This document shows, one piece after another, positions 6,329 to 36,907 of a DNA stretch of 64,000 nt. Both the position numbers and the translations under genes were made by a program. A model generated the notes under the pieces. It had not been told where the DNA came from. It saw only the letters and a program-made list of their open reading frames with translations, and made no database searches. Each line of letters starts with the position of its first letter. Position 1 is the first letter of the stretch. This stretch comes from Lacihabitans soyangensis (GTDB lineage Bacteria; Bacteroidota; Bacteroidia; Cytophagales; Spirosomataceae): NCBI RefSeq assembly GCF_024343775.1, contig NZ_RJUF01000180.1, positions 124,001 through 188,000 on the forward strand. Reading direction: 5' to 3'.

Positions 6329-6337
6329 ATAGGACAG
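6329..6337 (-). promoter_or_regulatory. Late promoter-like element 1 (CTGTCCTAT)
   Basis: Minus-strand CTGTCCTAT preceded by an A/T-rich run, 52 nt upstream of the tape measure start. It is one of six identical nonamers, all upstream of leftward phage genes. Confidence 0.7.
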
Positions 6338-6348
6338 GATTTTGTAAA

Positions 6349-6366
6349 GTCGCCATGCGTGGCGGC
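6349..6366. repeat. Palindromic mini-repeat, family A, diverged copy
   Basis: GTCGCCATGCGTGGCGGC, an imperfect member of the palindrome family, directly upstream (in the leftward sense) of late element 1. Confidence 0.7.
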
Positions 6367-6429
6367 TTCGAAGAAAACGGGAGAGACTACGTAAGCGGTT
6401 AGCCTCTTTATTCCCGTCTAAATAAAATT

Positions 6430-6452
6430 CCCCCACTGGGGGTTAGGGGGCT
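6430..6452. repeat. Mini-repeat family C (CCCCCACTGGGGG type)
   Basis: C-rich hairpin followed by GGTTAGGGGGCT. Its edge supplies the stop codon of the small gene at 6451-6735. Confidence 0.75.
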
Positions 6453-6735
6453 ACACCGCCTCAGCCATAGCCTCAAACATCCGCCTGAGCCGTATAATAT
6501 TAAAATTCACATTCCCAAGCTCCATAAACGTATTCTCGTCTCTATCTTTCAGACACATTTCAGTATTTATAAAATCCTGCATTTCTTGCAGTGGCTTTAT
6601 AAAATTATTCAGCGACCCACTCTCAGCCGAATGACATTCTTCTAGTAGCACAAACAACGGCATCACATTCACATGCTTTCCATTCATTGGGTTCTTTATC
6701 AAAAGATACTCAGGCCCTTCGTTTTTATTTTTCAT
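6451..6735 (-). CDS. Small phage protein of unknown function
   Basis: About 94 residues from the ATG at 6735, which has an A-rich leader; an ATG at 6762 would add nine residues. Mostly helical and charged (LLIKNPMNGKHVNVMPLFVL, EMQDFINTEMCLKDRDENTF). It is not recognised. It precedes the tape measure gene in the leftward operon, where tail assembly chaperones often sit, but nothing in the sequence proves that role. The stop codon falls in a family C mini-repeat, so the C-terminus was probably set or trimmed by that insertion. Confidence 0.55.
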   Translation of the reverse strand: MKNKNEGPEYLLIKNPMNGKHVNVMPLFVLLEECHSAESGSLNNFIKPLQEMQDFINTEMCLKDRDENTFMELGNVNFNIIRLRRMFEAMAEAV

Positions 6736-6964
6736 TTTTAAAATATTTAGCTGGTAATACAAGTTTTTGTCTTCTACATAATTTTATCGTAGCAATAGTC
6801 CGGATTATCTTATTTAAGTCCCTATTGCTCTGTTCCCAAAGTAAATTCCTTAATGTTCGTGTCATATATTTTGTTATTAATTATATTAACTTGTTATAAC
6901 TTGTACAAATTAATATAATTAAAATTATCTATGCAAACATTTTCTAATATAAATTATTATAACT

Positions 6965-6972
6965 TATATTTG
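6965..6972 (+). promoter_or_regulatory. Bacteroidota -7 promoter motif TATATTTG
   Basis: Exact TAnnTTTG match ending four bases before the ATG of the + strand gene at 6977. No clear -33 TTTG is seen. If it is used, the transcript would be nearly leaderless. Confidence 0.45.
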
Positions 6973-6976
6973 TTGT

Positions 6977-7141
6977 ATGAAGAAGATACAAATAGAGATC
7001 AGTGAAGAAACTCATGATGGCTTACTCGATGAGCAATTTAGGAGAAAGAAGCTTAAAAGCTCAAGGACTTCACTTGCAGAAATTGCCGCAGACTTGTTAG
7101 AATCACAAGTTGTTGCACAAAAAAAAGCCTCTCAATCTTGA
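6977..7141 (+). CDS. Ribbon-helix-helix-like small protein (moron candidate)
   Basis: A 54-residue protein on the strand opposite to the late genes. Predicted order is a beta strand (KKIQIEISEE), helix (LLDEQFRRKKLKSS) and helix (SLAEIAADLLESQV). This fits a ribbon-helix-helix DNA-binding dimer of the antitoxin or repressor type. It has its own TAnnTTTG motif upstream and a strong hairpin terminator whose 5' arm overlaps the end of the gene. That autonomous layout is typical of a gene expressed from the prophage (moron). No toxin partner is obvious. The target could be its own promoter. The function is inferred from shape only. Confidence 0.6.
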   Translation: MKKIQIEISEETHDGLLDEQFRRKKLKSSRTSLAEIAADLLESQVVAQKKASQS

Positions 7142-7152
7142 GAGGCTTTTTT
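7121..7152. terminator. Bidirectional intrinsic terminator
   Basis: Perfect 14-bp stem AAAAAAGCCTCTCA / TGAGAGGCTTTTTT with a 4-nt loop, between the convergent RHH-like and TM2 genes. Confidence 0.9.
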
Positions 7153-7167
7153 TTATTTTCGAAACTT

Positions 7168-7614
7168 TTATAATCCAGATTCTTTCTTTTCTACTTTCAG
7201 CTTGGCTTCTTCCTCATTCCAAAACTTTAATTTTTCTTGAAATTCCTCTCTGGTTAATTTACCAGCACTATAATCTGCACTTAGTAACTCCTTCTCAGTT
7301 TTTATTTCAACTTCCATTTTCTGATACAATTCTTTGATTCTTTCATTATTGGCCGCATACTTTTTTGAATTATCTGGAACGGCTTCTACATTAATGTTTT
7401 TTTGAGTTAGGATTCCATTGTACTTCAAGTCAAAATTTGCGTCACTCATCGTTAGGTAAACAATACCTTCAATAAAGCCTACAATTGCTGGTATAAAAGT
7501 CAAGCAAAATATCAAATAAATGATTCCAACACCCACCTTACCAAGGTAAAATTTGTGTATTCCAAGTCCGCCAAGTAAAAGTGCGAAAATTCCTGCTGTA
7601 GTTCTGTTTTTCAT
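7168..7614 (-). CDS. TM2-domain membrane protein with SHOCT-like tail
   Basis: 148 residues. The N-terminal TM2 domain has two membrane helices with the characteristic GGLGIHKFYLGK sequence (about residues 15-26), then VGIIYLIFCLTFIPAIVGFI. After a charged helix, the C-terminus (LLSADYSAGKLTREEFQEKL) resembles a SHOCT oligomerisation motif. TM2 proteins are common in bacterial genomes and occur as accessory cargo in prophages; their biochemical role is not settled. It lies between two terminators with its own flanks and faces the RHH-like gene. This suggests lysogenic cargo, perhaps altering the host envelope, rather than a virion part. Confidence 0.8.
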   Translation of the reverse strand: MKNRTTAGIFALLLGGLGIHKFYLGKVGVGIIYLIFCLTFIPAIVGFIEGIVYLTMSDANFDLKYNGILTQKNINVEAVPDNSKKYAANNERIKELYQKMEVEIKTEKELLSADYSAGKLTREEFQEKLKFWNEEEAKLKVEKKESGL

Positions 7615-7663
7615 ATTTCTAGCATTTTTTTAGATTAATAATGACCAATCATACAAAAAAAAA

Positions 7664-7686
7664 GACCATGGGCAAAACCCACGGCC
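7664..7686 (-). terminator. Intrinsic terminator upstream of the TM2 gene
   Basis: On the minus strand, stem GGCCGTGGG / CCCATGGTC with G-U pairs, then a run of nine T. It closes the transcript of the gene at 7710-7904. Confidence 0.75.
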
Positions 7687-7709
7687 ATTCCAAGTACATA
7701 AAAGTATAA

Positions 7710-7904: not shown

Positions 7905-7925
7905 ATATAATCATTCTAGCGTACA

Positions 7926-7943: not shown

Positions 7944-7945
7944 TC

Positions 7946-15272: not shown

Positions 15273-16301
15273 TTAAATTGTTACATATGATTTACTCGGG
15301 TCATTCTTCGCTCTAAAATAACCCTTCGTTGTAGAGCTCACTTTGTACTCCTCAGAGTTGAAGTAAGTCGGAAAAACACTCGCACTGGCATTCTTGTCAA
15401 TCAACCACTTCAGTTTTTTCAAATACCAATTCGCCCTATCGTCACAAGTAGCCTGCAAAGCATTCCGGCGGTTAGCATCCAAAGCATACTCACCTTCAAT
15501 CAGCGAGTACTGATCAGCATTAATTAACCTAAAATCCTCATTGATATTCAAAAACGGAATCGCCTCACTCACAGCCTTATAAGCCAAAAAATACTTAGCA
15601 TATGCCTTCGCCTCAGCAATAGCATAATTCGATTCATCACCATTCCTGAGAGCATCAAAAAACGCCTTTCCAAGTTGAGGCAAAAGCTCATGTTTCTCAA
15701 CCTTTACCAAATACTCTCTGATGTTCAGGTAAAACCTTCTTTTATGCCTTGCCTGTGGAAAAAACGCAGTAAACTCACTAGCATCATTGATATAAAGGCT
15801 CTTACTAATTGAGCACTCATCACTATCAATCCACTTCTGAAAAACCTTTACACCAGTCGAAACCTCGGCATTCTGATTCTTCTCCAGCCATACCAATGCC
15901 TGTTCAAGTGCCTCGTCAGCAGCTTCAAGGCTACTATCCTTCAGTTCCTTATAAGTCCACTTATACATCGGTGAGCCACCAGTATTATTCACCGCTATAC
16001 CATTATCGCCAATCACCGTCACCAGCTGTGGCAAAGCCGCCACCAAAGCATAATAGCCCGATGCTATCATCAGCCTATCAATAATTTTCTGCTGATACAC
16101 ATTCGGTTCATACAACTCACACAGCTCATCATAAAAACTCTCCGAAATAGCCGGCACAATATATTTCAGTTCAGCCTGCTTCACAAAACTCTCAAAAGTC
16201 TCCCAGGTAATACTTTGCTGTACGCCACCCAGCACGCTCTTCAGCTCAGCTTCATTTTTTATTAACATCAGACTTTTGTTTAGTGGTTGGGTTGCTTTCA
16301 C
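15273..16301 (-). CDS. Head-tail connector/adaptor-type protein (DUF6712-like)
   Basis: 342 residues, right after the portal gene, whose end it overlaps by 50 nt. It is all helical and resembles the DUF6712 phage proteins of Bacteroidota (KYIVPAISESFYDELCELYE; two roughly repeated halves, each with a Tyr-rich YYALVAALPQL or AKYFLAYKAVSEAIPFL helix). These are thought to act as head completion or adaptor proteins. The tandem halves suggest an internal duplication. Family assignment is from recall of the pattern, not a search. Confidence 0.65.
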   Translation of the reverse strand: MKATQPLNKSLMLIKNEAELKSVLGGVQQSITWETFESFVKQAELKYIVPAISESFYDELCELYEPNVYQQKIIDRLMIASGYYALVAALPQLVTVIGDNGIAVNNTGGSPMYKWTYKELKDSSLEAADEALEQALVWLEKNQNAEVSTGVKVFQKWIDSDECSISKSLYINDASEFTAFFPQARHKRRFYLNIREYLVKVEKHELLPQLGKAFFDALRNGDESNYAIAEAKAYAKYFLAYKAVSEAIPFLNINEDFRLINADQYSLIEGEYALDANRRNALQATCDDRANWYLKKLKWLIDKNASASVFPTYFNSEEYKVSSTTKGYFRAKNDPSKSYVTI

Positions 16302-17562
16302 TTCCAGCAGGAGTCACATCAAAAGTGTACAGCTTAATATCTTTAAAAACCAAAACCTTATTTCGGCTCCATCCCATAATCTTTTTCAGTATCTGAAAAT
16401 CCTCCAACAACAGCTCCCGGTCGCTATAAGTCAAAAAACCCTGTTGAAAATTCGCAGTAGCCTCCAACTCCTTACCAGAAGTTCCAAGGCCATTTCCTGT
16501 ATCAACCCCAACCATCGACGGTAGCAACCTGTGGCCACTGGTACTTATTTGCGTCATAGAGGTCAACACCTTCATATAAGCATCATCGCTCATTGGGTTC
16601 GGCAATGGAGTTATCTTAATACCACTTTCATAAAACTTTCCATCCGTAAACACCTTATTAAAAGTGTACAGAACCTTATCCACGTTCTCAATACCAGCAA
16701 GCGAATCACCAATTTGGTCAAGCGTTTCTTGTTTCAATCGCTCCTCATCGTAGCCATCTTCGTACGCTTCTTTTTTGAAATAATCATCAGGCACCGTTAT
16801 GTGGTACTTAATATTATAGCCATTATCAAGGCCCGAGTCATGAAACTTTGGAATCTTATTGGTCACTTTTGTAGAATCCTTAGTGCCCCACCATTCACCT
16901 ATTGGGTGGTAAACTTGTCCAGGATAAATATCCTTCACATCAATAATACAAACAGGGTAAGCCGTTGGATTCATCGGGTCAAATGCAGGAAGCTCCACAT
17001 TTTCTTCTTTCTTCCATCTCTTTGTACCAAAGTTGGGATTCAAAGCATATCTAGTCACCTCACTTTCACCATCCAACATCCTGTAAGGCCTACAATGAAA
17101 CGTATCAACCCTTTCAAATCGCTCTACTTTGGCGTTAGGTGCAAGCGTCATTTTTACATAATATCTCCCACCCCAAACCAAGTCAATTGCCCTTGCCCTT
17201 AAATTCCGTTTGTATTGGATAGATTCCAAAAAATCTTCAATGGCAATTGTCTCCGGTTCTTCATCCAAAACAAACACTTCCTCACCAGCTTCAATCTTTC
17301 GGGTTCTAACCTCTACGCCCTTACCAATCATCAAGTCACGCTTGGTTCTAATCAATGACCATTTGTTAGCACTTTCAGACACAAGTAAATGCAACTCATG
17401 CATTATCTCATCTTTGTTACCAATCGGCACATGGTCAGCCTTATCAGCCTTGGCCTTAGAAATGCCGTTATAACCAATATCAGCTCCAGCTCCAAACTGA
17501 ACACCCACATCGGCCACCTTGCCTCTAACTACATAAACACTTTCGGTTAATCTAACAGCCAT
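16252..17562 (-). CDS. Portal protein
   Basis: 436 residues. The layout is that of portals: N-terminal region with VSESANKWSLIRTKRDLMIG (near residue 60-80, a stem/clip-preceding helix), the mid-domain FLESIQYKRNLRARAIDLVW, and a C-terminal helix-rich crown (TSGKELEATANFQQGFLTYS, LEDFQILKKIM). It lies between the terminase and connector genes, as expected. The dodecameric portal is the DNA entry channel of the capsid and the docking site for the terminase. The start (MAVRLTES) is preceded by the small gene at 17564-17821 with a 1-nt gap. Confidence 0.8.
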   Translation of the reverse strand: MAVRLTESVYVVRGKVADVGVQFGAGADIGYNGISKAKADKADHVPIGNKDEIMHELHLLVSESANKWSLIRTKRDLMIGKGVEVRTRKIEAGEEVFVLDEEPETIAIEDFLESIQYKRNLRARAIDLVWGGRYYVKMTLAPNAKVERFERVDTFHCRPYRMLDGESEVTRYALNPNFGTKRWKKEENVELPAFDPMNPTAYPVCIIDVKDIYPGQVYHPIGEWWGTKDSTKVTNKIPKFHDSGLDNGYNIKYHITVPDDYFKKEAYEDGYDEERLKQETLDQIGDSLAGIENVDKVLYTFNKVFTDGKFYESGIKITPLPNPMSDDAYMKVLTSMTQISTSGHRLLPSMVGVDTGNGLGTSGKELEATANFQQGFLTYSDRELLLEDFQILKKIMGWSRNKVLVFKDIKLYTFDVTPAGSESNPTTKQKSDVNKK

Positions 17563-17563: not shown

Positions 17564-17821
17564 TTATTCGGGTCTAATAATCTCCATACCGTTGTAGGTC
17601 ATAATCAAGTCAATCGTACAATCAAAAAACTCATCCTTCTTTGGTACATAGCAATTCAACACACCATTTCGATTCATCTTTTTTCTATCACCCAGTGAAG
17701 TCTTACGGTTAGTCACATCGTGTTTAGTCACAAAACTTCCGTCAGCCTTCCAAAACCCAATCGAAAAGACCGAATTCGGTTTGTTCATATCTCCCAAAGC
17801 CTCACTGATTAAAATTTTCAT
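17564..17821 (-). CDS. Small protein upstream of portal, unknown
   Basis: 85 residues (KILISEALGDMNKPNSVFSI, LNCYVPKKDEFFDCTIDLIM), beta-rich, with no family recognised. It starts the second late unit, with late element 2 located 50 nt upstream, and ends one nucleotide before the portal start, so the two are cotranslated. It could be a head-associated or regulatory peptide. Confidence 0.5.
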   Translation of the reverse strand: MKILISEALGDMNKPNSVFSIGFWKADGSFVTKHDVTNRKTSLGDRKKMNRNGVLNCYVPKKDEFFDCTIDLIMTYNGMEIIRPE

Positions 17822-17870
17822 AAATCATTCAAATTGACAATGCAATTCTACATTTCGTATCCATTTCTAC

Positions 17871-17879
17871 ATAGGACAG
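17871..17879 (-). promoter_or_regulatory. Late promoter-like element 2 (CTGTCCTAT)
   Basis: Minus-strand CTGTCCTAT preceded by AAAATAAC, 50 nt upstream of the gene before the portal. Confidence 0.7.
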
Positions 17880-18061: not shown

Positions 18062-19663
18062 TTACTTAGGTCGGTAAACGTAAAGTTGATTTTGTTGAGT
18101 CATTGAATCAGGCAAACGGTTGTGGAACCTGGTCCATAGGTAATAGTCCAATGCATCAGTTCCATCTGGTGCGTACTCCCTATGCTTCAGAGGCAGGTTC
18201 TTCTCACTCTTCTTGACCTTTTGATACTCTTCGTTGACAGGTGTTGACTGAAGCTGCAGTATCAATACCTTATTGGTATGCTGATTCACCCTTAGCTTAG
18301 GTAGCCTGGTTGAATCCTCTGATAGTATATCGTTGACCAATCTGTATTTCCGCTTATGTAAAGGCCGTGATTTAGATTCCTTCCTAAATACAACCCATCC
18401 ATTGGCTTTGAGCTCTTTTTGGAATCGGTCAAAATCTGGCCTATGTGTATCTGAAGTGCCTGAATTCTTGGCATTTCCAGAAGGATCGCCGTATATATTG
18501 ACCTCTTTAGTAGGGTGGTTAATGTAGGTCTTACAGAACCATTTGGCATTCTGTACCACTATATCTGTGGTTTCCTTGGCTTCAGTATCTGAATTTGCTT
18601 CTTTTACTAATGTTGGTTTTATAAAGTTTGAATTAATCACCCTAACTTCATTCTTAACTTCCTGCAGAACTACTGCCCAGCAAATCTTAGCATTGAAATC
18701 AAGGGTAACATCAAGGGCTAAATCGTCTCTATAGTCATTTGAAAACGATAAATGAAGTCCTGTTTTATCGTCGTATTCATAGCGTTGTTTTTCCCAATAT
18801 AAGTGCCTTGATGTTTTAAAGGCATGGTAAAAACCATCAGGAAGGCTAGTCAAGCGAATATTTGCTACCTCAACATCAAAAACTAACGGGTCTTCTCCAG
18901 CCTTTTGTTCATCCCAATATTTTTGACCTGCCAATGGGTTGTCTAAACAAGTGGCCTCCAAAATCAGATGTTTTGGAGGTGTTTTAAGTCGTTGTTGTTG
19001 TGTTAAAAATTCTCTAGCTGCAAATTCGGATTTATAAAGTTCCTCGTTTCTATAGATGTGCATTCCTTCCTGGTACCAGGCTGCAGAAGAAAATTGGTAG
19101 TGGCAATGAAAAAATTTCGATTTCGAGATTTTTTTGTGCGTATTGCCTCGAATTGCTTTTTTTAGAATCTTGTAAATAAAATCTTCTCCAACAGTTGCAG
19201 CTTCATCGACCAATAGGCCGTCTATATTCAAACCTCTGTGAGTTTCCGCTCTATCTTCACTTACAAATTGGATTGTAAAGCCGTTGATAAAACTCATACA
19301 GTACTGATATCCTAAACGGCCAACTTTTTTGTATGGACCAGGCCAATCTTCTGGAGGTTTTTTGCCAACTACATAATGTCCAAAAGGATTAGCCTTTGAA
19401 TATTCGTAAATACCCATGTATTCAAGCGATTCCTTGATTACAGGTAGGGTTACCAGGTCAATCGTTACATATGTTACGCCAGCGAGAGCAAACTTCGCCC
19501 TTGGCATTTCTCGGTAAGCCATACCTACAACCTTACCGATGGTATCTGTTTTTGCACAACCCCGACCGCCCAAAAAATCTTTTATTTGAGCACGAGAACC
19601 TAAGAACTTCTGTTGCTTGAGGTTGGCAAAAACCTTCAATTTGTCTTTATTTGCCTCAATCAT
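18062..19663 (-). CDS. Terminase large subunit (ATPase-nuclease)
   Basis: 533 residues. A Walker A-like GGRGCAKT lies near residues 27-34 and a Walker B segment LLVDEAATVGEDF near 150. The nuclease half has an acidic LALDVTLDFNAKICWAVVL (about 312), VNIYGDPSGNAK (about 395) and the late GTDALDYYLW near the C-terminus, matching RNase H-like terminase nucleases. It pumps DNA into the procapsid and cuts the concatemer. It overlaps the small subunit gene by 8 nt. The gene is collinear and intact. Confidence 0.9.
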   Translation of the reverse strand: MIEANKDKLKVFANLKQQKFLGSRAQIKDFLGGRGCAKTDTIGKVVGMAYREMPRAKFALAGVTYVTIDLVTLPVIKESLEYMGIYEYSKANPFGHYVVGKKPPEDWPGPYKKVGRLGYQYCMSFINGFTIQFVSEDRAETHRGLNIDGLLVDEAATVGEDFIYKILKKAIRGNTHKKISKSKFFHCHYQFSSAAWYQEGMHIYRNEELYKSEFAAREFLTQQQRLKTPPKHLILEATCLDNPLAGQKYWDEQKAGEDPLVFDVEVANIRLTSLPDGFYHAFKTSRHLYWEKQRYEYDDKTGLHLSFSNDYRDDLALDVTLDFNAKICWAVVLQEVKNEVRVINSNFIKPTLVKEANSDTEAKETTDIVVQNAKWFCKTYINHPTKEVNIYGDPSGNAKNSGTSDTHRPDFDRFQKELKANGWVVFRKESKSRPLHKRKYRLVNDILSEDSTRLPKLRVNQHTNKVLILQLQSTPVNEEYQKVKKSEKNLPLKHREYAPDGTDALDYYLWTRFHNRLPDSMTQQNQLYVYRPK

Positions 19664-20216
19664 CGGGATCTAGTTCTTTTTGGCGTTGGTGTAAAACATT
19701 GATATTGTTGGTGAAAACAAAAGTCGATGGATGCTTGAAGTCATCTGGATCCAGTCCTTGCATTTCAGATTCAAATAAGCCTTCGAGCTTGTCAGCTTTC
19801 TCCCACAGCTTCCCTGCAGCTTCGTAGTCTTTATCTTTAAATGCCAAGTTGGCAAGTGTTCTGTAGAAGTTTATAGAAGCTCTTTTCTTACCAACCCTGT
19901 CAGCTTCACCTACAATGCCATAAATCAGATAGGCCTCCTTAACAATATTGTAGGCTTGGCGATATTCGATTTCATATTCTTTGGTAAGTACTGAGCGAAT
20001 AAACTCATCTGTACGGCCGATATCAAAAAGAGAGAAAACCCGACGAATCCTTTCAAACTTGGTTCTTTCGGTTTCTGTGAGAGATTCTTTGTGCGGAAAT
20101 TGTGGGTCTGGCTCAAGCAATATCTCATCATTGTAGAACCTCAGATACTTCTCTATCTTGGTTTCGTCTACCTTCAGTAATGCCTTTGCTTGTTTTAGTG
20201 TAAGTGCTTTGCTCAC
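19656..20216 (-). CDS. Terminase small subunit-type protein with GTG start
   Basis: 186 residues, immediately upstream of the large subunit and overlapping it. The N-terminal part (ALTLKQAKALLKVDETKIEK; later LTKEYEIEYRQAYNIVKEAY) is helix-turn-helix-like, as expected for DNA recognition, followed by a helical oligomerisation part. The start codon is GTG. It lies in one arm of a perfect 11-bp inverted repeat (20212-20222 with 20249-20259), so the mRNA can bury its own start site. Late element 3 lies 53 nt upstream. The family name is inferred from position and size. Confidence 0.7.
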   Translation of the reverse strand: MSKALTLKQAKALLKVDETKIEKYLRFYNDEILLEPDPQFPHKESLTETERTKFERIRRVFSLFDIGRTDEFIRSVLTKEYEIEYRQAYNIVKEAYLIYGIVGEADRVGKKRASINFYRTLANLAFKDKDYEAAGKLWEKADKLEGLFESEMQGLDPDDFKHPSTFVFTNNINVLHQRQKELDPDD

Positions 20217-20259
20217 GCTTTGCTACCATTTTTGATTTCTCAAAGCAACAAAGCGTGAG
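20212..20259 (-). promoter_or_regulatory. Leader hairpin covering the terS start codon
   Basis: Arms CTCACGCTTTG (20249-20259 read on the minus strand) and CAAAGCGTGAG (20212-20222) are perfectly complementary over 11 bp with a 26-nt loop. The GTG start codon is inside the second arm. It lies downstream of late element 3, so it would be part of the transcript. Confidence 0.6.
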
Positions 20260-20268: not shown

Positions 20269-20277
20269 ATAGGACAG
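20269..20277 (-). promoter_or_regulatory. Late promoter-like element 3 (CTGTCCTAT)
   Basis: Minus-strand CTGTCCTAT preceded by TTTTAAAATC, 53 nt upstream of the terminase small subunit start. The preceding 10 bases nearly match element 1. Confidence 0.72.
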
Positions 20278-20281: not shown

Positions 20282-20842
20282 TTAAAACAACCCATTACAA
20301 AGCCCAGACAATGCCTTCAAAGCATTCTCTTTGGCTTCATCTTCGTTGGGTTCGGGGTGGAAATTCTCCAACTTGCAGCCCTCTTCAATAAAGTGTGACA
20401 TTGAACGTCCCATTTTTTTTCCTTTCCTGGTATGTTTATCATAGGCAAAGTCCGGCACCGGTCTGAACCTTGAGCTGTGGCACCCAAACACATACACCGT
20501 TTGCCAATCTACATACCGGCTTTTCTTGGCTCTACAGAGCATTATCACGGCATGCACTAGAAACAACCTTTCCGGAAAGTGCTTATCGTCCTTTTTCTTG
20601 GCCATGTCCTTCCACATTTGGTAGAGGCTGTTGATCTCAGTACTGATGCCAGGAGTAGCGAAGCCCACGTCTTCGCTACTGATTACTTTCAATCTTTTCC
20701 ATGCATATTCTGGCGTTTTGAGGCTCAGTTCCACCGCCCAAAACAGTGCATCATCTTCCATCCCTCTCCTGATACATTTCTGAAAAGCCGAGCTGGCTTC
20801 AAAAAAATCATATCCGTTTTCTGTCTTTATCTCGCTGATCAT
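20282..20842 (-). CDS. Stand-alone RarA/MgsA C-terminal-like domain protein
   Basis: 186 residues. It resembles the C-terminal cluster of RarA/MgsA AAA+ proteins: FFEASSAFQKCIRRGMEDDA followed by ALFWAVELSLKTPEYAWKRL and ISSEDVGFATP. In cellular proteins this region forms the tetramer and contacts SSB; here the ATPase part is absent, and phages often carry this domain alone. A role in replication or repair of phage DNA, perhaps as a modulator of host RarA, is an inference. It overlaps the SymE-like gene upstream by 4 nt (ATGA). Confidence 0.7.
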   Translation of the reverse strand: MISEIKTENGYDFFEASSAFQKCIRRGMEDDALFWAVELSLKTPEYAWKRLKVISSEDVGFATPGISTEINSLYQMWKDMAKKKDDKHFPERLFLVHAVIMLCRAKKSRYVDWQTVYVFGCHSSRFRPVPDFAYDKHTRKGKKMGRSMSHFIEEGCKLENFHPEPNEDEAKENALKALSGLCNGLF

Positions 20843-21015
20843 ATCGATAATATTGTTAATCGTCCGTTTTCTACTTTAATACTGCAGGTCATTCCCGCTT
20901 CAAATCCAGCTTCTTTCAGCCACTCTCCTTTTAGCAGGAGTTGAGGTACAACCTTCAAGTCCCATTTGCGTTTTTCCCATTTCTCTTGGGTTTTTATTTT
21001 CCTAAATTCTTGCAT
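20839..21015 (-). CDS. SymE-like AbrB-fold protein
   Basis: 58 residues from the ATG at 21015, chosen because AGAGG lies 8 nt upstream; an ATG at 21063 is less likely. The core VPQLLLKGEWLKEAGFEAGM followed by a short beta end (IKVENGRLTIL) matches the SymE toxin family, whose members fold like AbrB antitoxins. In E. coli SymE is an SOS-induced RNA-associated toxin, but many phage homologues are uncharacterised and may be DNA- or RNA-binding regulators. A repeat box (21032-21052) precedes it. No antisense RNA is recognised. Confidence 0.7.
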   Translation of the reverse strand: MQEFRKIKTQEKWEKRKWDLKVVPQLLLKGEWLKEAGFEAGMTCSIKVENGRLTILSI

Positions 21016-21031
21016 ACATTTGCCTCTGTTT

Positions 21032-21052
21032 AAATTTATTAGTGAGATAATC
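21032..21052 (-). promoter_or_regulatory. Leader box GATTATCTCACTAATAAATT, copy 1
   Basis: The same 20-base sequence lies just upstream of three start codons in the phage (also 38732-38752 and 39340-39360), always in the same orientation and 9-17 nt before ATG. Confidence 0.6.
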
Positions 21053-21066
21053 GGTTTGAACAAACG

Positions 21067-22590: not shown

Positions 22591-23358
22591 TTAAAATGGT
22601 ACTTTAAAATTCATTTGGAACTGGTGGTTTCTAGTACCAGTTTTTCTTACGCAAATTACATATTCGCCGAAAAATCCTTGCAATTCGCCCAATATTTTTT
22701 CCAAAGTCTCCATATTTCTAAACTCCGCCAATCCTCCAGAGCCTACCCAAGTATCGCCGTAGTGGAAGTAAAACCGATTATCACGCCAAATCTTCCTATG
22801 CAAATAAGCATTAAGCCCACAAATCCAATAATCCTCCTGGTATCGCTGTTCAGGTCTAAAATACAGTTTCGAGCCTTCCAATAACCCAAATGCACAAGTA
22901 TTCACGTAGCCACTCAGCTGGATGGGTGCCAAACTCGCATAAGTAAAAGGTTTACCTGAGGTATTAAATCCAAACAAAAAAGCCCCAGACTGTCTGGCAG
23001 CTCTGGCAGTGGCTTGTATAACATCAAAAATCTCCTGTGGACTCAATTTGTCCTTTTCACCTGTTTCGGTATAAATCCGCTTCATATACATCAGGTCATC
23101 ATCCATATGAAACGCATCACCAAAATACTCATACATCCATTGGCGTTTCCAGCTAAGGCCAATAATTGAGTCAGGATGGGTCACAATCTCAGCATCCGGG
23201 CAATGTTCGCGATACTCACCCAATTGGCTCTCAGGTATGCAAATAATACTATTCGCCACTTTCTTATGAGTAGTAATCTTATCAGCTCGTTTGTGCGAAG
23301 CAATAAGCACCTTTATCTCCCCCACTGGGGGCTGGGGGGCCGTCATTTCCTCTGCCAT
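22591..23358 (-). CDS. TET-associated-type glycosyltransferase (possible DNA modification)
   Basis: 255 residues. The core begins KVLIASHKRADKITTHK and includes IIGLSWKRQWMYEYF and the acidic AFHMDDDLMYMKRIY (a DDD metal/sugar-nucleotide motif, about residues 80-95), plus QEDYWICGLNAYLHRKIWRD. This pattern resembles the TAGT glycosyltransferases that occur in phages and decorate hydroxymethylated bases. No TET/JBP oxygenase or hydroxymethylase is visible in the window, so the substrate is open: phage DNA base, or a protein/surface glycan. A family C mini-repeat adds APQPPVGE after a five-residue new start. The start lies 16 nt inside the ParB-like gene. Confidence 0.65.
   Translation of the reverse strand: MAEEMTAPQPPVGEIKVLIASHKRADKITTHKKVANSIICIPESQLGEYREHCPDAEIVTHPDSIIGLSWKRQWMYEYFGDAFHMDDDLMYMKRIYTETGEKDKLSPQEIFDVIQATARAARQSGAFLFGFNTSGKPFTYASLAPIQLSGYVNTCAFGLLEGSKLYFRPEQRYQEDYWICGLNAYLHRKIWRDNRFYFHYGDTWVGSGGLAEFRNMETLEKILGELQGFFGEYVICVRKTGTRNHQFQMNFKVPF
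23318..23341. repeat. Mini-repeat family C at the N-terminus of the glycosyltransferase
   Basis: CCCCCACTGGGGG plus CTGGGGGGC, translated as APQPPVGE. The same peptide occurs in the scaffold-like protein at 27917-28354. Confidence 0.8.
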
Positions 23359-23969
23359 GCTTCAGTAAATTGTTTAGCGGTCATCACATAGCTTTCTCCC
23401 ACATTGCTGGTCTTATAATCCTTGGCTTTGCCAAGTCCAAGCACCTCACGTACATAATTCTCATCAATGCTATTTTCGCACATAATTATCACTGCAGAGT
23501 ACTTCTCAGAGTATTTGGGCACTATCGGCATTTCGGGCTCATCACGCATGGCCTTTTCGTTTCCTGTGTCTAGGTCTTTAGTCAGGTCATCCATGCTGAT
23601 ATTAAAATCATCAAGATTCACATATTCCTCAAACTCATCATGTAGCATCTGCAGGTCAAACTCCCCGGCATGAGTATTCTCAATCACCATGATTTCCTTC
23701 AGCTCCACATCTGTCAGTTTCCTCACGGCAGTTCTTACGTCTATCACCATATCGCCCATGCCATAGTCTCTAAGTACCTGGCATCTCTGGTGGCCACTAA
23801 GGAGGGTTCCATCCGCATCCCTTACAGGAATACCAATCAAGCCAAATTTCTGCAGTCTAGCCCAAAGTTTTCCTTTCTCAAGCTGCTTTATCTTTCGTGG
23901 ATTCAGCGTATGAGGCACCAGCTCAGCCACACTTACCTTTTCGGTCACAAACAATTCCTCAACCTTCAT
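23343..23969 (-). CDS. ParB/Srx-type nuclease-like protein
   Basis: 208 residues. N-terminal ParB/sulfiredoxin domain: VAELVPHTLNPRKIKQLEKG, then FGLIGIPVRDADGTLLSGHQ with the GHQR motif (LLSGHQRCQVLRDYG, about residues 55-70). Phage ParB-domain proteins act as nucleases, kinases or adaptors and are often linked to base-modification genes. It directly overlaps the glycosyltransferase gene (16 nt) and is overlapped by the gene upstream (11 nt), so the three are coupled. A real partitioning role is unlikely: no ParA is present. Confidence 0.8.
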   Translation of the reverse strand: MKVEELFVTEKVSVAELVPHTLNPRKIKQLEKGKLWARLQKFGLIGIPVRDADGTLLSGHQRCQVLRDYGMGDMVIDVRTAVRKLTDVELKEIMVIENTHAGEFDLQMLHDEFEEYVNLDDFNISMDDLTKDLDTGNEKAMRDEPEMPIVPKYSEKYSAVIIMCENSIDENYVREVLGLGKAKDYKTSNVGESYVMTAKQFTEAWQRK

Positions 23970-26254: not shown

Positions 26255-26815
26255 TTAAGCAGGAAGCGGCACCAAGTTTGGCGACAACGTAGCCAGTAGT
26301 GAGCTCTGCAATGTTACAAGTCCAAACGTCAAACCATCCACCTCTGCTTTCAGAGTATAACCACGCTTATCGTTACCCTTTTTGCCAAGAGCAAACGACT
26401 TCTTCAAGAAACCAGGATCATCAGTACTAAACACAAGAATGTACTCACCATCCTTATCTTCAATCAGAAACAACGCACCGGCATTGATGTACTTCCTCAT
26501 CTCAGCTCTCAGTGCCTTGCTCTTACCAGCCATCATAAACTCTATCATGTGCTTATAAGACTGAAAACTAGGGTCTCCGCTATCATCTATCTTATAGTCA
26601 AGCGTTCCGTCAGGAAACAAATACTGCGACCACTTCTTAGTAGCCACCAAAGTAGGCAACGCCGTCAGCTCCGTTCCATCTGCATTAAAATGCTCAGGCA
26701 AAGGATAATTACCGACAACATCTTTGGCAAGTATCGCAAACAAATTACGACCACCGCCAGGGTTAGCTTGCTGGAAACATTGTCCATCCACAGCACCCAA
26801 ACTCAATACAGGCAT
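26255..26815 (-). CDS. Virion protein downstream of capsid, possibly tail tube-like
   Basis: 186 residues, beta-rich: N-terminal GAVDGQCFQQANPGGGRNLF, middle DPSFQSYKHMIEFMMAGKSK, C-terminal KRGYTLKAEVDGLTFGLVTL. A compact single domain with a Gly-rich N-arm and a strand-rich end is seen in both decoration and tail tube proteins. It follows the major capsid gene after a gap that holds a mini-repeat. Neither identity is proven. Confidence 0.5.
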   Translation of the reverse strand: MPVLSLGAVDGQCFQQANPGGGRNLFAILAKDVVGNYPLPEHFNADGTELTALPTLVATKKWSQYLFPDGTLDYKIDDSGDPSFQSYKHMIEFMMAGKSKALRAEMRKYINAGALFLIEDKDGEYILVFSTDDPGFLKKSFALGKKGNDKRGYTLKAEVDGLTFGLVTLQSSLLATLSPNLVPLPA

Positions 26816-28421: not shown

Positions 28422-29327
28422 TCAAGCACTCTTGCTCGCCAACAAATCCGCCCTATAGACAGCATCGCCCAGGTATCCTATACTATCCGCCATACCTTTC
28501 TTAATAGCCTCCTTTCCGAAGTACATTTTACCCGTAAAAACATCGTCAGATATACCTGGTCTACCAGCTTTCACATTCTTTATAAAAGTGCCTCTAACTA
28601 CATTCAGCTCAGCCTTCACAGTACTAAGCAACTCCGCCGATAGCGGCTCAATACTATTATAAAGAGCCTTATCCTCAGAGCCATCCGACCTGATGATATT
28701 AATCTTGTAGCCCTCTTTTTCGTAGAACTTCGAAGCATCCACATGCATGCTCAGTACACCTATACTGCCCACTTCGCTAGTGGTTTCACTTTCCATAATG
28801 ATTTCACGGCACTGGCTAGCTACCCAATAATGAGCACTCGCAGCCATACCGGCCACATACGCCACTACAGGTTTTCTCGAGTTTTTCACCACAGCACCCA
28901 GCATCTCAGTACCGTCCACTTCACCACCAGGGCCATTCATTTCCAGCACTATCGAGCTTACGTAGTCCATGCTATTGGCCTCCATAATCCAGCTCGCAAA
29001 ATCCTCGCTTCCATAGCTACACATTCCGCCATAACGGGTCATGGTGCCTATCATAGGTATAATGGCCACTCCACCACCTTTAGCCTGAGACAAATCCCAC
29101 GGTTTCCATTTCCCATCAGCTCCTATATGGCTTGCAACAGGTGACTGAGCGGAGCCGAAGTTACTAGGTGCCAAATACGGCCCATGCTTCGCTTTTTGCT
29201 CATCCCAAGCCGCCTTCATCTCAGCCATTGAGCCGCCTTGGCTAAGTTTCCTTAGCATAAGAGCGGCCTGGACCTCGTTAAAACGAGGCTCCAAAGCCCA
29301 AGTTTTTGAAATTAATTGCTCTATCAT
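28422..29327 (-). CDS. S49-family prohead protease
   Basis: 301 residues, SppA/ClpP-like fold. Segments in order: VAIIPMIGTMTRYGGMCSYG (about residue 87), IVLEMNGPGGEVDGTEML, VVAYVAGMAASAHYWVAS with the candidate catalytic Ser (about 164), and SEVGSIGVLSMHVDASKFYE. The nucleophile and its following helix are intact. Such phage S49 enzymes mature capsids by cleaving scaffold. A family B mini-repeat adds NFGSAQSPV near residue 60, before the catalytic fold. Starts a late unit with late element 4 located 33 nt upstream. Confidence 0.88.
   Translation of the reverse strand: MIEQLISKTWALEPRFNEVQAALMLRKLSQGGSMAEMKAAWDEQKAKHGPYLAPSNFGSAQSPVASHIGADGKWKPWDLSQAKGGGVAIIPMIGTMTRYGGMCSYGSEDFASWIMEANSMDYVSSIVLEMNGPGGEVDGTEMLGAVVKNSRKPVVAYVAGMAASAHYWVASQCREIIMESETTSEVGSIGVLSMHVDASKFYEKEGYKINIIRSDGSEDKALYNSIEPLSAELLSTVKAELNVVRGTFIKNVKAGRPGISDDVFTGKMYFGKEAIKKGMADSIGYLGDAVYRADLLASKSA
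29143..29160. repeat. Mini-repeat family B, read in frame
   Basis: GACTGAGCGGAGCCGAAG encodes FGSAQS in the protease linker. Confidence 0.75.
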
Positions 29328-29359
29328 AAACCAAGATTACAATACACATTCACCTCTCA

Positions 29360-29368
29360 ATAGGACAG
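29360..29368 (-). promoter_or_regulatory. Late promoter-like element 4 (CTGTCCTAT)
   Basis: Minus-strand CTGTCCTAT preceded by TTATTATTC, 33 nt upstream of the protease start, just downstream of a terminator. Confidence 0.7.
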
Positions 29369-29435: not shown

Positions 29436-29729
29436 TCAATCACATAAACCAGGGTCTATATGCAGGCTAACAAATTCTTGATCAACTCCATTAGGCTCAG
29501 CAAAAGCCTCATTTTTACCTAAAGAGTCACTAAAGATACCAATGGTATCAGTAAGGTAAGCAGGCATCTCTACAACAGTAGAAACCGTATTTCCAGCCAC
29601 AATCTTGCAACTGTCCACACTTGCCACTTTTACCTTCAAACCATCATCTACCTTTATCAGACCCTCAGCTTGAGTAATACCAACAAAGCTAAACAGCCCC
29701 ATTAAGCACATTACAATAAACTTTTTCAT
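29436..29729 (-). CDS. Small secreted protein, unknown (cargo candidate)
   Basis: 97 residues with a clear Sec signal peptide (KKFIVMCLMGLFSFVGITQA, cleavage probably after QA at about residue 21). The mature part is acidic and beta-like, with two Cys (DSCKIVAGN and the last but one residue, GLCD) that could form a disulphide. No family is recognised. It has its own late element 5 (61 nt upstream) and its own terminator, forming a single-gene late unit. A periplasmic or surface function, such as superinfection exclusion or lysis control, is only a guess. Confidence 0.55.
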   Translation of the reverse strand: MKKFIVMCLMGLFSFVGITQAEGLIKVDDGLKVKVASVDSCKIVAGNTVSTVVEMPAYLTDTIGIFSDSLGKNEAFAEPNGVDQEFVSLHIDPGLCD

Positions 29730-29789
29730 GATAAATAAATTAGATAAATTTTACAATGAACCAAACCTACACTATCTATTTACAACATT

Positions 29790-29798
29790 ATAGGACAG
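29790..29798 (-). promoter_or_regulatory. Late promoter-like element 5 (CTGTCCTAT)
   Basis: Minus-strand CTGTCCTAT preceded by GATTTGTG, 61 nt upstream of the secreted gene and right after the stop of the tail-fibre gene. Confidence 0.68.
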
Positions 29799-31207: not shown

Positions 31208-31723
31208 TTAACTATTAAAATCCTCACTAAAATCAAAACCAAAATCCGTACTCTCAAAAACCACCGCCACGTCCGAAGACCGCAACGCCACCGCACCTTC
31301 TCTACACACACCAGCCACATTCATCACATAGCCAGTCTTATCACCTACTTGCTTTCTGTGTATCACATCCAGTCCGGTCACATCATCACCTATAAGCCAT
31401 GCATTCTCATTCCCATCACGAAAAAAACACACTACTTTAGCATTCCTATTTGCTTTCAGCCAAGCGTTCACATCAGCTCTCAGTATAGGCATCTCACAGT
31501 CTATTGCACAGCTATACGCATGTCCATTATCAGTCAGTTCCTCGTTTTCAGTATAAAAACAAGTATTCTGGGCAAACACCATCTTCGTCACCTCAGCATT
31601 CAGCTTCACCACAAAGCCGTTCACACTCAGCACGTCAGCCTGTTTCACCAGCCACAGCTCCTTCACCATACGGCCATTGGTCATTCCCTGCCAATCGCCC
31701 AGTTCACCAACATTCACATACAT
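31208..31723 (-). CDS. Virion protein upstream of fibre gene, unknown
   Basis: 171 residues from the second of two adjacent ATGs (31723). Starts MYVNVGELGDWQGMTNGRMV, with a series of short beta segments (FFRDGNENAWLIGDDVTGLD) and three central Cys. No family recognised. Probably part of the tail fibre or baseplate, given its neighbours. Confidence 0.45.
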   Translation of the reverse strand: MYVNVGELGDWQGMTNGRMVKELWLVKQADVLSVNGFVVKLNAEVTKMVFAQNTCFYTENEELTDNGHAYSCAIDCEMPILRADVNAWLKANRNAKVVCFFRDGNENAWLIGDDVTGLDVIHRKQVGDKTGYVMNVAGVCREGAVALRSSDVAVVFESTDFGFDFSEDFNS

Positions 31724-31789
31724 CATAATCCAAACCTATACATATATATACATATCCAATAGTACAGCCGCAATTCAGCACTTTCTCAG

Positions 31790-32008: not shown

Positions 32009-32659
32009 CTATTTCCCCTTTTGGGGGTTAGGGGGCTGCACAAACCTAAAACTCTTCCTCGGCAAACCCGTCGCCTCTATCGGGTCCTTCATCTCATTAT
32101 TCTCCCGTTGGATGATCTTATCTAGGTTATCTCTAGTCAGCGTGTCTTCAGCAAAATCAAACAGCTGATGCATGATAATAGCCGAGTTCCGGCTACTATT
32201 AAAATAGCACCGGCAGCCATGCGAAAACCCCTTCGCATAAATCCTCGCATAACTTTCCAGAGCCTTTCCAATCTGCTCTAGCATATCTGGCATAATCACA
32301 CCACGCTCAAACTTTCCACCTACCAAAAACCTCAACTCCACACAATCCTCGGGCATCTCTATCTCCAGCTCATTAGCCTTCGCTCCTTTTTTCTTTCCTG
32401 GTGGCAGTCCATCATCATCCGTCGGATTATTCAGGTCTTCCACAATCTCATTCAGCATAATTTGCCTTTCATCATCCTCCAGTTCATACAGCAGTTGGCC
32501 CCGCCATTTGAAATTCAAATTCAGATACGCCTTCCTAAGCACAGCCAGCAGAAAAATCTGTCCGATATCCGTATTAGCCCTTATCGGTATCGGCTCTTTA
32601 CCATAATGTTTCAAAAGGAGATGCCGCACATACGGCTTTACAGGGATCGGCAGAAGCAT
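32009..32659 (-). CDS. Phage protein under an early-type promoter, candidate regulator
   Basis: 216 residues, helical, with a highly charged C-terminal half. N-terminal IPVKPYVRHLLLKHYGKEPI, then ANTDIGQIFLLAVLRKAYLN; near the end FAEDTLTRDNLDKIIQRENN. No domain is recognised and no clear helix-turn-helix is seen. The C-terminus VQPPNPQKGK and the stop codon come from a family C mini-repeat. Its promoter is a near-copy of the main early promoter with the same operator-like sequence, unlike all other late-region genes. It may therefore be a middle-stage regulator or a gene made before the late switch; a structural role is the alternative. Confidence 0.55.
   Translation of the reverse strand: MLLPIPVKPYVRHLLLKHYGKEPIPIRANTDIGQIFLLAVLRKAYLNLNFKWRGQLLYELEDDERQIMLNEIVEDLNNPTDDDGLPPGKKKGAKANELEIEMPEDCVELRFLVGGKFERGVIMPDMLEQIGKALESYARIYAKGFSHGCRCYFNSSRNSAIIMHQLFDFAEDTLTRDNLDKIIQRENNEMKDPIEATGLPRKSFRFVQPPNPQKGK
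32014..32038. repeat. Mini-repeat family C supplying a C-terminus
   Basis: CCCCTTTTGGGGG plus TTAGGGGGCT; encodes PPNPQKGK and the stop of the overlapping gene. Confidence 0.75.
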
Positions 32660-33350: not shown

Positions 33351-33357
33351 CAGTACA

Positions 33358-35400: not shown

Positions 35401-35414
35401 ATTTTTTTAAAAAT

Positions 35415-35777
35415 TTAACTATATATAATTGTAGGTAATTTGTCTGCGTAAGTTGTCACTGTCTTCACCAGCTCTATGCCCGCAGGCGTAGTGCCAGCTA
35501 GCGTCACTACTATAGTGTTAGCACTAGGCCGTGTAATGGTCTTCACCACTCCGTTTGCATACGTCATGCTGTTTGCCGTGCTAGCAACTATGTCTATGCC
35601 CCGTAGGTTTTTAGATACCGTCTCGAAGGTTTCTTTGCTATTCAGCTCAAACACCGCCGCACCCGTGGCGTCGGACACAAACAAGCTAAAACCCGTACCC
35701 ACCCGCACCACATATATGGCGTTGGGCGTGTACGGAGTCGGAATGGCCGATATCTCTTTATATATCTTCAGCTCCAT
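35415..35777 (-). CDS. Fibre-associated small protein, paralogue of the next gene
   Basis: 120 residues. The N-terminus (ELKIYKEISAIPTPYTPNAI, then YVVRVGTGFSLFVSDATGAA) matches the N-terminus of 35781-36338 (KIFKVFKETAVPATWQADAV, then YFIQAAGATYMEIYTT) in length and pattern. This suggests a shared attachment domain used by two fibre subunits. The rest is beta-rich. Likely a tail fibre component; no named family. Confidence 0.55.
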   Translation of the reverse strand: MELKIYKEISAIPTPYTPNAIYVVRVGTGFSLFVSDATGAAVFELNSKETFETVSKNLRGIDIVASTANSMTYANGVVKTITRPSANTIVVTLAGTTPAGIELVKTVTTYADKLPTIIYS

Positions 35778-35780
35778 CTA

Positions 35781-36338
35781 TCACCAGTTTGTCGAAGCCC
35801 ATGCGGTTTTTGGCAGGCTACCGTTGTAGTACAAGTTGCCGTCTGTCTCGCTTATTTTGTCCAGCTGTGTCTTGTTAGCATGCGAGTGGCTGTTGCCCAC
35901 AGCAGCGTCTATTTGTGCCGCCGTGCTGGTAGGCTTACCCTGTAGAGCGTTCCAAGTCAGTACCACATCCAAGCTTTCGGCCTCGCTGGTTTTTATCCAA
36001 GCTGTGTTGGCCAGGTCATAGAGGTAGTATGCTCCACCGCTTGCTACGGTAGTGTCTGCTGTAGCATTACGCACAAACACATTCATCGCCCTTGTAGGAG
36101 CCAAAGCGTTACGAGCAGCTATGTCTGCCACTATAGTGAGCTCATTGGCCGCTGCCAGCCCTGCCGATATCATACTTGTGATATCCGCCTCGTTAATCAG
36201 CCGCTTAGGTACACCAGCCGCACTGGTGGTGTATATCTCCATGTAGGTAGCCCCAGCTGCCTGTATAAAATAAACTGCGTCGGCCTGCCAAGTAGCCGGC
36301 ACAGCCGTTTCTTTGAATACCTTAAATATTTTGTTCAT
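35781..36338 (-). CDS. Tail fibre/connector protein ending in STNW
   Basis: 185 residues: N-terminal attachment-like domain shared with the gene at 35415, then helices (ANELTIVADIAARNALAPTR), a beta part (TTVASGGAYYLYDLANTAWI) and the motif NSHSHANKTQLDKISETD, a His-rich stretch common in phage fibre proteins. It ends SLPKTAWASTNW. The neighbouring 53-residue collagen-like protein ends EVYWGSTNW, so the two share a C-terminal tag. Probably part of the distal tail. Confidence 0.6.
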   Translation of the reverse strand: MNKIFKVFKETAVPATWQADAVYFIQAAGATYMEIYTTSAAGVPKRLINEADITSMISAGLAAANELTIVADIAARNALAPTRAMNVFVRNATADTTVASGGAYYLYDLANTAWIKTSEAESLDVVLTWNALQGKPTSTAAQIDAAVGNSHSHANKTQLDKISETDGNLYYNGSLPKTAWASTNW

Positions 36339-36363
36339 GTTTATGAATTATAAAAATTATAAA

Positions 36364-36525
36364 TTACCAATTTGTACTGCCCCAGTATACCTCACCAGGC
36401 TCACCTTTGGGGCCAGGCAAGCCTATGTAATTTGCCAGCCCAGGAATAACGCCTACCTCGGGTTCTAAAACCAGCTGTAGCTCAATGGGTGGCTCCACTT
36501 CCAACAAAAGTTCTACCTCAGCCAT
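36364..36525 (-). CDS. 53-residue collagen-like microprotein with STNW end
   Basis: Starts at the TGATG overlap with the gene at 36525-36854. The acidic Leu/Val/Glu-rich first half (AEVELLLEVEPPIELQLVLE) leads into a collagen triplet stretch (GLPGPKGEPGE) and then VYWGSTNW. Collagen-type Gly-X-Y runs in phages make trimeric stalks of fibres; here it is only a few triplets. The tag STNW is shared with the next gene downstream. Too short for routine gene finding, but the overlap and shared tag make it convincing. Confidence 0.65.
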   Translation of the reverse strand: MAEVELLLEVEPPIELQLVLEPEVGVIPGLANYIGLPGPKGEPGEVYWGSTNW

Positions 36526-36854
36526 CACAATCTCGTTTTAGTCAGTTCAAAATCCCCCATTCCTATTGTCACCTCTTTGCCATTCTTCACAGCCTCTAGC
36601 TCCCAGTCATACAGCCCATGTTTATTCAGCGTATCAGCCTTATTTATCACAATCTCCAGCCTTTGGCCGGTGGCCACTATAGCCGTTCCAGTCTTCTCAA
36701 AAACCAACCTATACGGCTGTGTTTTATCATACACCGCAAACTTAAACGTCGTCCCAGCCACCTGAAACACATCCGGCACATTAAAAACCACGTCACAGTC
36801 ATTACCTGCCTGACGTCTAATCTTAATCCTATTCTTAACCAAATACGTCGCCAT
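36525..36854 (-). CDS. Baseplate-type small protein (BppU-N/DUF2479-like)
   Basis: 109 residues: IKIRRQAGNDCDVVFNVPDV, GTTFKFAVYDKTQPYRLVFE, then LYDWELEAVKNGKEVTIGMG. The beta-sandwich-like pattern with an Asn/Asp-rich start and a closing GDFEL strand resembles the N-terminal domain of baseplate upper proteins. First gene of the fibre unit, with late element 6 located 45 nt upstream. Confidence 0.6.
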   Translation of the reverse strand: MATYLVKNRIKIRRQAGNDCDVVFNVPDVFQVAGTTFKFAVYDKTQPYRLVFEKTGTAIVATGQRLEIVINKADTLNKHGLYDWELEAVKNGKEVTIGMGDFELTKTRL

Positions 36855-36898
36855 AATTTCAATTTATACTCAATACTAAACCCCTCAAAACAATACTC

Positions 36899-36907
36899 AT
36901 AGGACAG
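36899..36907 (-). promoter_or_regulatory. Late promoter-like element 6 (CTGTCCTAT)
   Basis: Minus-strand CTGTCCTAT preceded by ACTTAAT, 45 nt upstream of the first fibre-unit gene. Confidence 0.7.

Follow-up and report, generated by a model that had tools for sequence, protein, structure and literature searches.

The window, that is, the whole 64,000-nt stretch of DNA analysed here, contains six exact copies of the nonamer CTGTCCTAT on its two strands, all of them on the minus strand among phage late genes. Each copy is followed by a second element, here called the -7 box, and precedes a minus-strand gene. These features, a weaker seventh copy and the candidate regulator gene are as follows.

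6329-6337, minus strand: late box CTGTCCTAT; -7 box CAAATTGG at 6301-6308, its TTG one base closer; predicted start near 6296; precedes the tape measure gene 2657-6277
17871-17879, minus strand: late box; -7 box TAGAATTG at 17843-17850; predicted start near 17838; precedes an 85-aa gene (17564-17821), then gene 16252-17562
20269-20277, minus strand: late box; -7 box TTGCTTTG at 20241-20248; predicted start near 20236; precedes the gene in the terS position (19656-20216) and TerL (18062-19663)
29360-29368, minus strand: late box; -7 box TAATCTTG at 29332-29339; predicted start near 29327, coinciding with the ATG of the head protease (gene 28422-29327) and implying a short-leader or leaderless transcript
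29790-29798, minus strand: late box; -7 box TAGGTTTG at 29762-29769; predicted start near 29757; precedes a 97-aa gene (29436-29729)
36899-36907, minus strand: late box; -7 box TAGTATTG at 36871-36878; predicted start near 36866; precedes a 109-aa gene (36525-36854)
31759-31767, minus strand: probable weaker seventh copy CTGTACTAT, with TAGGTTTG at 31731-31738 after N20; a start may be predicted near 31726; precedes the 172-aa gene
31208-31726, minus strand: 172-aa gene directly after the candidate regulator, in one family with 26255-26815
32009-32659, minus strand: gene of the candidate late regulator (216 aa), which belongs to an orphan family and lies at the early/late boundary

The six copies (the initial annotation had noticed none outside the late region) are real and far above chance, since 0.32 are expected in the window and none of 100 shuffles reached six. 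When one mismatch is allowed, the count (16) is near expectation (11.5, reached in 12 of 100 shuffles), indicating that the signal resides in the exact word. As had also been reported, every box lies inside a gap between minus-strand ORFs (at least 60 aa) in the orientation of the genes, and four of the six are preceded by an A/T-rich stretch and C. The motif ends 44, 60, 32, 52, 49 and 51 nt before the start codon, differing from the earlier figure of 33-61 nt only by counting convention. Boxless gaps also exist, as the box is present in 6 of the 24 gaps of at least 40 nt. Genome-wide (5.65 Mb) the nonamer is rare, with 15 copies, six in this 30 kb of the window and nine elsewhere, fewer than the 21 of the reversed word. 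Family matches support the names tape measure, S49-type head protease and, adjoining one site, large terminase, and the terS label follows from the position before TerL. The names pre-portal, secreted protein and fibre unit were not borne out, as family searches with the 85-, 97- and 109-aa genes gave no match of known function.

Primary sigma factor promoters of Bacteroidota are described as having a TAnnTTTG -7 element at -12 to -5 (PMC9723704) and TTTG near -33 (PMC7366714), although the relevant part of the latter source reports that F. johnsoniae, too, yielded no -33 motif. The initial annotation had stated that the nonamer does not resemble the host promoter, overlooking a host-type -7 box (approximate matches to TAnnTTTG) that follows all six copies, exactly 20 nt past the box and in register at five of them; at the 6329 site the TTG lies one base nearer than at the other five. 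The -7 score along the window sites has a single peak at the expected offset (mean 6.2) and is below -2 at the 27 other offsets tested. In contrast, TTTG near -33 is absent, and CTGTCCTAT occupies its place. Thus, the nonamer would form the upstream part of a composite promoter and span about -41 to -33, the usual place of the host -33 element, and its reading as a -10-like element was abandoned once the -7 box emerged at a fixed distance. As the box stands in for the -33 region or overlaps it, transcription is predicted to begin about 33 nt beyond the box, by arithmetic from the placement of the -7 box at -12 to -5 (PMC9723704), rather than 5-15 nt beyond it; the latter distance, by which the idea was originally to be judged, could reject a correct idea. 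The initial annotation is therefore partly supported, being right on a phage-specific late promoter or activator element, for which conservation, fixed spacing and strand argue strongly, and wrong on the absence of host-like features. Its further suggestion of altered polymerase specificity alone is less likely than that of an activator, given that the -7 box is of the ordinary host type.

A putative promoter of the form GTCCT-N22-[T/C]AnnnTTG, approximately, recurs on the late strand of related prophages and of the cultured phages Leef_1 (of Polaribacter) and Ingeline_1 (of Cellulophaga); dozens of related prophages keep the element at a constant spacing, on the same strand and downstream of one conserved gene. 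In the gaps of 23 relative stretches, with the window excluded, TGTCCTA was found 31 times on the late strand versus four times on the other (in 17 stretches), and GTCCTGT 28 times versus none. Over whole stretches the strand bias of GTCCTAT (56 to 13) ranks only about 480th among heptamers, because coding bias is strong. Late-strand matches numbered 150, of which the 83 lying 15-150 nt before an ORF (21 stretches, six sites from the window) were taken as gap sites. Among these, TTG follows 25 nt past the box in 39 and 24 nt past it in 10, compared with 3 and 5 of the 65 reverse-strand controls, and 30 of the sites have TAnnnTTG at offset 20, the only one of 50 offsets at which it occurs. A PWM built from 65 relative sites, again excluding the window, ranked the six window sites first to sixth (19.6-25.1 bits, next best 12.6) and gave 0.2 matches at or above 13 bits in each of ten simulated windows. 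The seventh copy, overlooked by the initial annotation, is absent from the PWM scan list, its changed letter being invariant in the PWM.

Sites of at least 13 bits favoured the late strand in three held-out sets as well (35 to 3, 39 to 3 and 9 to 0 in 11, 20 and 5 stretches). Furthermore, GTCCT was the top pentamer at the fixed distance in 20 distant stretches (19 to 0, in 12 of the 20), and the strict GTCCT composite was distributed 88 to 1 by strand over 35 stretches, with none in five stretches. The first set was assembled without the short viral contig L002 and the third G049 TerL hit; the second and third sets (31 stretches) were picked for carrying the candidate gene. The cultured phages together have four late-strand sites of at least 13 bits and one on the other strand. 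In Leef_1 and Ingeline_1, GTCCTTT boxes precede several late genes; these flavophages share the box spacing and a homologue of the candidate with our prophage but differ in that the box ends in TTT, and phage 6H has no clear GTCCT promoter. The promoter thus appears to be common to many related Bacteroidota phages. Among the literature matches listed, mostly from open-access journals, none describes the box or late-gene switching in Bacteroidota phages, and the main text of the Leef_1 and Ingeline_1 report (PMC8776804), as far as available, lacks the word "promoter".

The product of 32009-32659 is, by our inference from gene order and conservation, the best candidate reader of the box, as it represents the sole widely conserved family found upstream of the boxes. 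Gene clustering over 48 stretches, leaving out seven short or partial ones, placed this family in 47, and among clusters found in at least 12 stretches no other has a median place that is not downstream of the candidate. Of 55 cases, 25 have a site of at least 13 bits in the 260 nt after the gene and one has such a site in the 260 nt before it, and box cores repeat at 20-21 bp beside the gene in 27 of 50 relatives. In the first set of 24 stretches, five are without the gene: in G179, G000b, G049a and viral contig L003 the sequence stops 0.3-16 kb upstream of TerL, and the G141 stretch stops 19 kb upstream. Homologues annotated as hypothetical lie near the head protease in Leef_1 and Ingeline_1. 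Two of the three cultured-phage homologues are weak (6H, 8.8e-9; Ingeline_1, 4.7e-7), and a wider model retained that of 6H (2.4e-11) and lost that of Ingeline_1 at 1e-5. Eight genomes without a regulator match, intended as negative controls, failed as such, since the wider model finds the gene in five. Of the remaining three, G057 (37 kb) and G066 (a 5.5-kb contig) lack both gene and site, and G094 lacks the gene and has one site per strand.

The candidate itself has no significant Pfam, PHROG or NCBIfam match and no recognised DNA-binding domain, and members of its family match entries of these types only at E of at least 0.04. Fold models gave nothing significant against the PDB (best for the second model, TnpE at E 4.7), and the one match at E below 0.001 in a viral library was the Leef_1 protein. 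No sigma-type domain was found among the proteins scanned, a part of the ORFs. The 172-aa gene was first chosen as regulator since box arrays precede it in relatives; it was dropped as a family-mate of 26255-26815, and judging by its family it is probably structural.

The box is probably read by a phage protein cooperating with the host transcription machinery. In the mechanism that we consider likely, an ordinary host sigma-A -7 box would form the downstream half of each promoter, 20 nt past the nonamer at about -41 to -33, and the orphan protein from 32009-32659, whose gene lies directly upstream of the late genes, does not itself follow such a box and is presumably expressed early, would most likely bind the nonamer. 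The bound protein would activate rather than repress, recruiting or remodelling host RNA polymerase so that head, packaging and tail genes are switched on together. It is less probable, though worth considering, that the same composite promoter has a different phage-encoded reader, a sigma factor or activator that escaped recognition, and that the 32009-32659 product is otherwise employed at the early/late boundary. The candidate's lack of a known DNA-binding fold would fit this, the box arrays beside its gene could serve a different protein, and fast-evolving genes further upstream could be missed where coverage is thin (upstream sequence totals 120 kb for the first set and 92 kb for the three held-out ones). 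Yet no second family present in at least 12 of the 48 stretches lies upstream of the boxes, and a LuxR-type gene noted in Leef_1 and Ingeline_1 is too rare: the ORF sets searched, with the third set of stretches left aside, contain it only in Leef_1, G185 and G186.

A composite promoter read by a phage activator has partial parallels. At T4 middle promoters, where MotA and AsiA act by sigma appropriation, the host -10 is described as kept and a phage box as replacing the -35 (PMC6755090). Our elements, as far as sequence can tell, likewise place a phage box at the -35/-33 position and keep the host downstream box, but they serve late genes, use the Bacteroidota sigma-A TAnnTTTG and have a box spanning about -41 to -33, not one centred near -30. 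Neither MotA nor AsiA relatives were found for the candidate by family or fold, or among ten early ORFs by Pfam. Late promoters of Mu are reported to carry a common site next to or over the -35 region that is read by the phage activator C (PMC4461284), which according to a figure legend there acts as a dimer. Several predicted late promoters with a common site by the -35 region, probably read by an activator, occur here too, whereas our box consists of one asymmetric word, and Pfam gave no Mor/C match up to E 1 for any of 16 proteins of the candidate's family. We propose a MotA-like late activator acting at a promoter that is itself well supported by the comparisons above. Whether the orphan family is a novel late activator conserved across Cytophagales and Flavobacteriia phages, re-aiming sigma-A via a phage -33 box with a preference that has diverged between prophages of the same host so that each activates only its own late genes, seems to us evenly balanced.

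Activation by such a protein has also to be weighed against a role of the box as a repressor operator silencing late promoters in the lysogen, which would suit its overlap with the -33 region and the operator-like 20-21 bp repeats in relatives. This appears improbable, as a repressor site need not hold one exact distance to the -7 box, and the Cro/C1-type gene at 43443-43832, the usual kind of repressor, has its nearest exact box about 6.5 kb off.

Six TTGCCCT[G/T]T sites occur on the late strand of a second prophage in this host genome, and at each of them a spacer of exactly 20 nt leads to a -7-like 8-mer. They precede the gene in the terS position, the pre-portal position, the 109-aa gene and others; the opposite strand of that prophage has one such word, without a -7 box. 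One of these boxes precedes a gene 84% identical to its counterpart here. That two prophages of one host differ in box even before this gene argues against one shared host factor, and the composite pattern occurs only five times in the genome, four of them in this prophage, versus two for the reversed pattern. A host alternative sigma factor or host activator as reader, for which the host-type -7 half would speak (PMC9723704, PMC7366714, as far as those accounts go), is thus very improbable. A chance or neutral repeat with no transcriptional role is hardly credible in view of the copy excess, fixed spacing, PWM ranking and held-out conservation.

A comparison of regulator and box was not decisive as proof of pairing: the GCCCT-box phages (G130, G102 and the second prophage) are grouped in the regulator tree and equally in the TerL tree, both built without G259, so the box change cannot be pinned on the candidate gene. 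One of these phages, G102, has a mixture of GTCCT and GCCCT boxes. The analysis gives a testable promoter with predicted starts and a candidate activator with no known relatives, and the box may serve as a handle by which late transcription units could be marked in numerous prophages that lack annotation. A single cell with two prophages that differ in box would provide a ready test of specificity.

The nonamer CTGTCCTAT occurs six times in the window, all on the minus strand and exactly where the initial annotation had placed it, with no further exact copy and against an expected count of 0.32. The nonamer is rare genome-wide as well: there are 15 copies in 5.65 Mb, six of them in the window, as compared with 21 copies of the reversed word. 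All six window copies lie in gaps, 32-60 nt upstream of a start codon. Reading of the flanks, however, contradicts the earlier view that nothing here resembles a host promoter, since a host-type -7 box is present downstream of every copy (6/6). Its TTG lies at an offset of 25 from the nonamer at five of the six sites and of 24 at 6329, and the -7 score in the window is high at the expected offset only. In our judgement, which is not a computed value, nonamer and -7 box very probably form a composite promoter together.

Because TAnnTTTG occupies -12 to -5 in Flavobacterium psychrophilum promoters, according to PMC9723704, the nonamer would by this ruler be placed at -41 to -33, with predicted starts about 33 nt beyond its end. 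A host consensus TTTG near -33 comes from a Bacteroides paper, PMC7366714, according to which the motif was not found in F. johnsoniae; a missing TTTG therefore proves nothing by itself. The predicted starts at 29327 and 31726 coincide with ATG positions, suggesting that the late mRNAs from these sites are leaderless or have a very short leader.

Of 222 genomes from the family, 74 contain relatives of the large terminase TerL (E 0.001, weak and partial matches counted). The genera of the matching contigs, Larkinella, Spirosoma, and Siphonobacter, place the family in Cytophagales, to which the window's own genome would belong by kinship. The first set comprised 24 stretches, namely those around 21 TerL matches, the window, and two viral contigs. 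Among gap heptamers of the relatives, with the window left out, TGTCCTA and GTCCTGT were prominent and strand-biased, and terminator-like T and A runs ranked equal to or above them. The profile of 71 non-redundant sites contains two conserved blocks, an A/T run followed by [N][T/C]GTCCT[A/G][T/C] and TAnnTT(T/G)G, separated by a poorly conserved 20-nt spacer; its core letters are set by the selection pattern, which leaves the flanks and the -7 block as its informative parts. The relatives' PWM, which like this profile and no other count was reduced for redundancy, puts the six window sites in ranks 1-6.

The strand count in the training set was 122 versus 3, a bias partly built in. Three further sets, comprising 11, 20, and 5 stretches, together have 83 sites of at least 13 bits on the late strand versus 6 on the other (35/3, 39/3, and 9/0, respectively), although such counts are not independent events because related prophages share ancestry. 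A box-free search of 20 distant stretches returned GTCCT as the top pentamer at the box distance (19 versus 0, in 12 of the 20). In the cultured phages, all three Leef_1 sites of at least 13 bits are on the late strand with GTCCTTT, Ingeline_1 carries three sites with GTCCTTT on the late strand, and 6H has one site per strand, with GTCCT in neither.

Further TerL and candidate-regulator relatives are located on two separate contigs of the window's own genome (G000), C178 (L053) and C41 (L120), which we infer to be parts of one second prophage, probably of the same kind, with TTGCCCT boxes. The late strand of these contigs has six copies of TTGCCCTGT or TTGCCCTTT, all with exact 20-nt spacing to a -7-like 8-mer downstream (TAGTTTAG, CAGTTTTG, TTGATTTG, TAGTTTTG, TAGTTTTG, and TAGGTTTG); the opposite strand has a single TTGCCCTGT, without a -7-like box. 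One box precedes a 109-aa gene 84% identical to window 36525-36854, and there is one each before the terS-position gene, at the pre-portal position, and behind the regulator gene. Neither contig has the strict GTCCT composite, and a relative with GCCCT boxes (G130) has the same layout, TTTTGCCCTAC-N20-TACCTTTG. Two different boxes in two prophages of one genome fit a phage-specific factor, whereas one shared host factor would not account for them. C41 also carries tandem copies of a ~30-nt unit after its regulator gene.

The candidate for such a factor is encoded at 32009-32659 on the minus strand, directly before the late genes, and belongs to an orphan family. This family is present in 19 of the 24 first-set stretches, which were chosen by TerL, and in all stretches of the sets of 11, 20, and 5, the first two of which were selected by carrying the gene. 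When ORFs of 48 stretches were clustered, it was found in 47, as a single copy; no other cluster found in at least 12 of the 48 has its median place upstream of the candidate gene, and a single stray member lies there in each of eight other clusters. In the four genome-derived sets, sites of at least 13 bits number 6 upstream of the gene (212 kb) versus 199 downstream (1,369 kb). Around its stop codon, 27 of 50 relatives (e.g. L046, L052, and L147) carry arrays of the box core in 20- or 21-bp steps, and for the 21-bp step the comparison is 20 relatives versus 2 on the reverse strand. These arrays sit at the early/late boundary of the relatives; the window contains none.

The Leef_1 homologue was recruited in round one of the profile search (final E 1.6e-32, with a model including it) and recovered independently by fold (E 7e-4), and weaker homologues are 6H gp40 (8.8e-9) and Ingeline1_41 (4.7e-7). 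Two predicted structure models (pLDDT 76 and 82, pTM 0.63 and 0.73) show an alpha/beta fold with a helical C-terminal part. Fold searches with both models gave no significant PDB match; TnpE, a non-significant one, is presumably a helix-turn-helix protein.

Judged from sequence, a MotA-like strategy fits best, in which the phage promoter would retain the host -7 box, the upstream host box would be swapped for a phage box, and a phage-supplied protein would read the latter. The likeness to T4 MotA concerns the way of working only, as the analysis identified no relative of MotA or of AsiA. By our own uncomputed estimates, activation rather than repression is very likely, and the 32009-32659 product is a reasonably probable reader of the box, a link that is confounded with phage descent.

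Other genes in the window are as follows.

22591-23969, minus strand, in the late half, TET-associated/HMC-type glycosyltransferase (TAGT) and ParB-like protein side by side
31208-31726, minus strand, conserved family member, adjoining the candidate regulator
26255-26815, minus strand, member of the same family
20839-21063, minus strand, SymE-like toxin gene, just upstream of the terS box
20282-20842, minus strand, adjoining MgsA C-terminal-like protein, also just upstream of the terS box
43443-43832, plus strand, Cro/C1-type repressor gene, divergent and close to the probable prophage edge
44685-46163, minus strand, GH32 glycosidase gene past the repressor gene, host-DNA-like in appearance

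The family shared by 31208-31726 and 26255-26815 (95 ORFs, spread over 47 of the 48 stretches) is probably structural. TAGT and ParB-like clusters are each present in 23 of the 48 stretches, and the pair could be a sign of base modification in the phage DNA.
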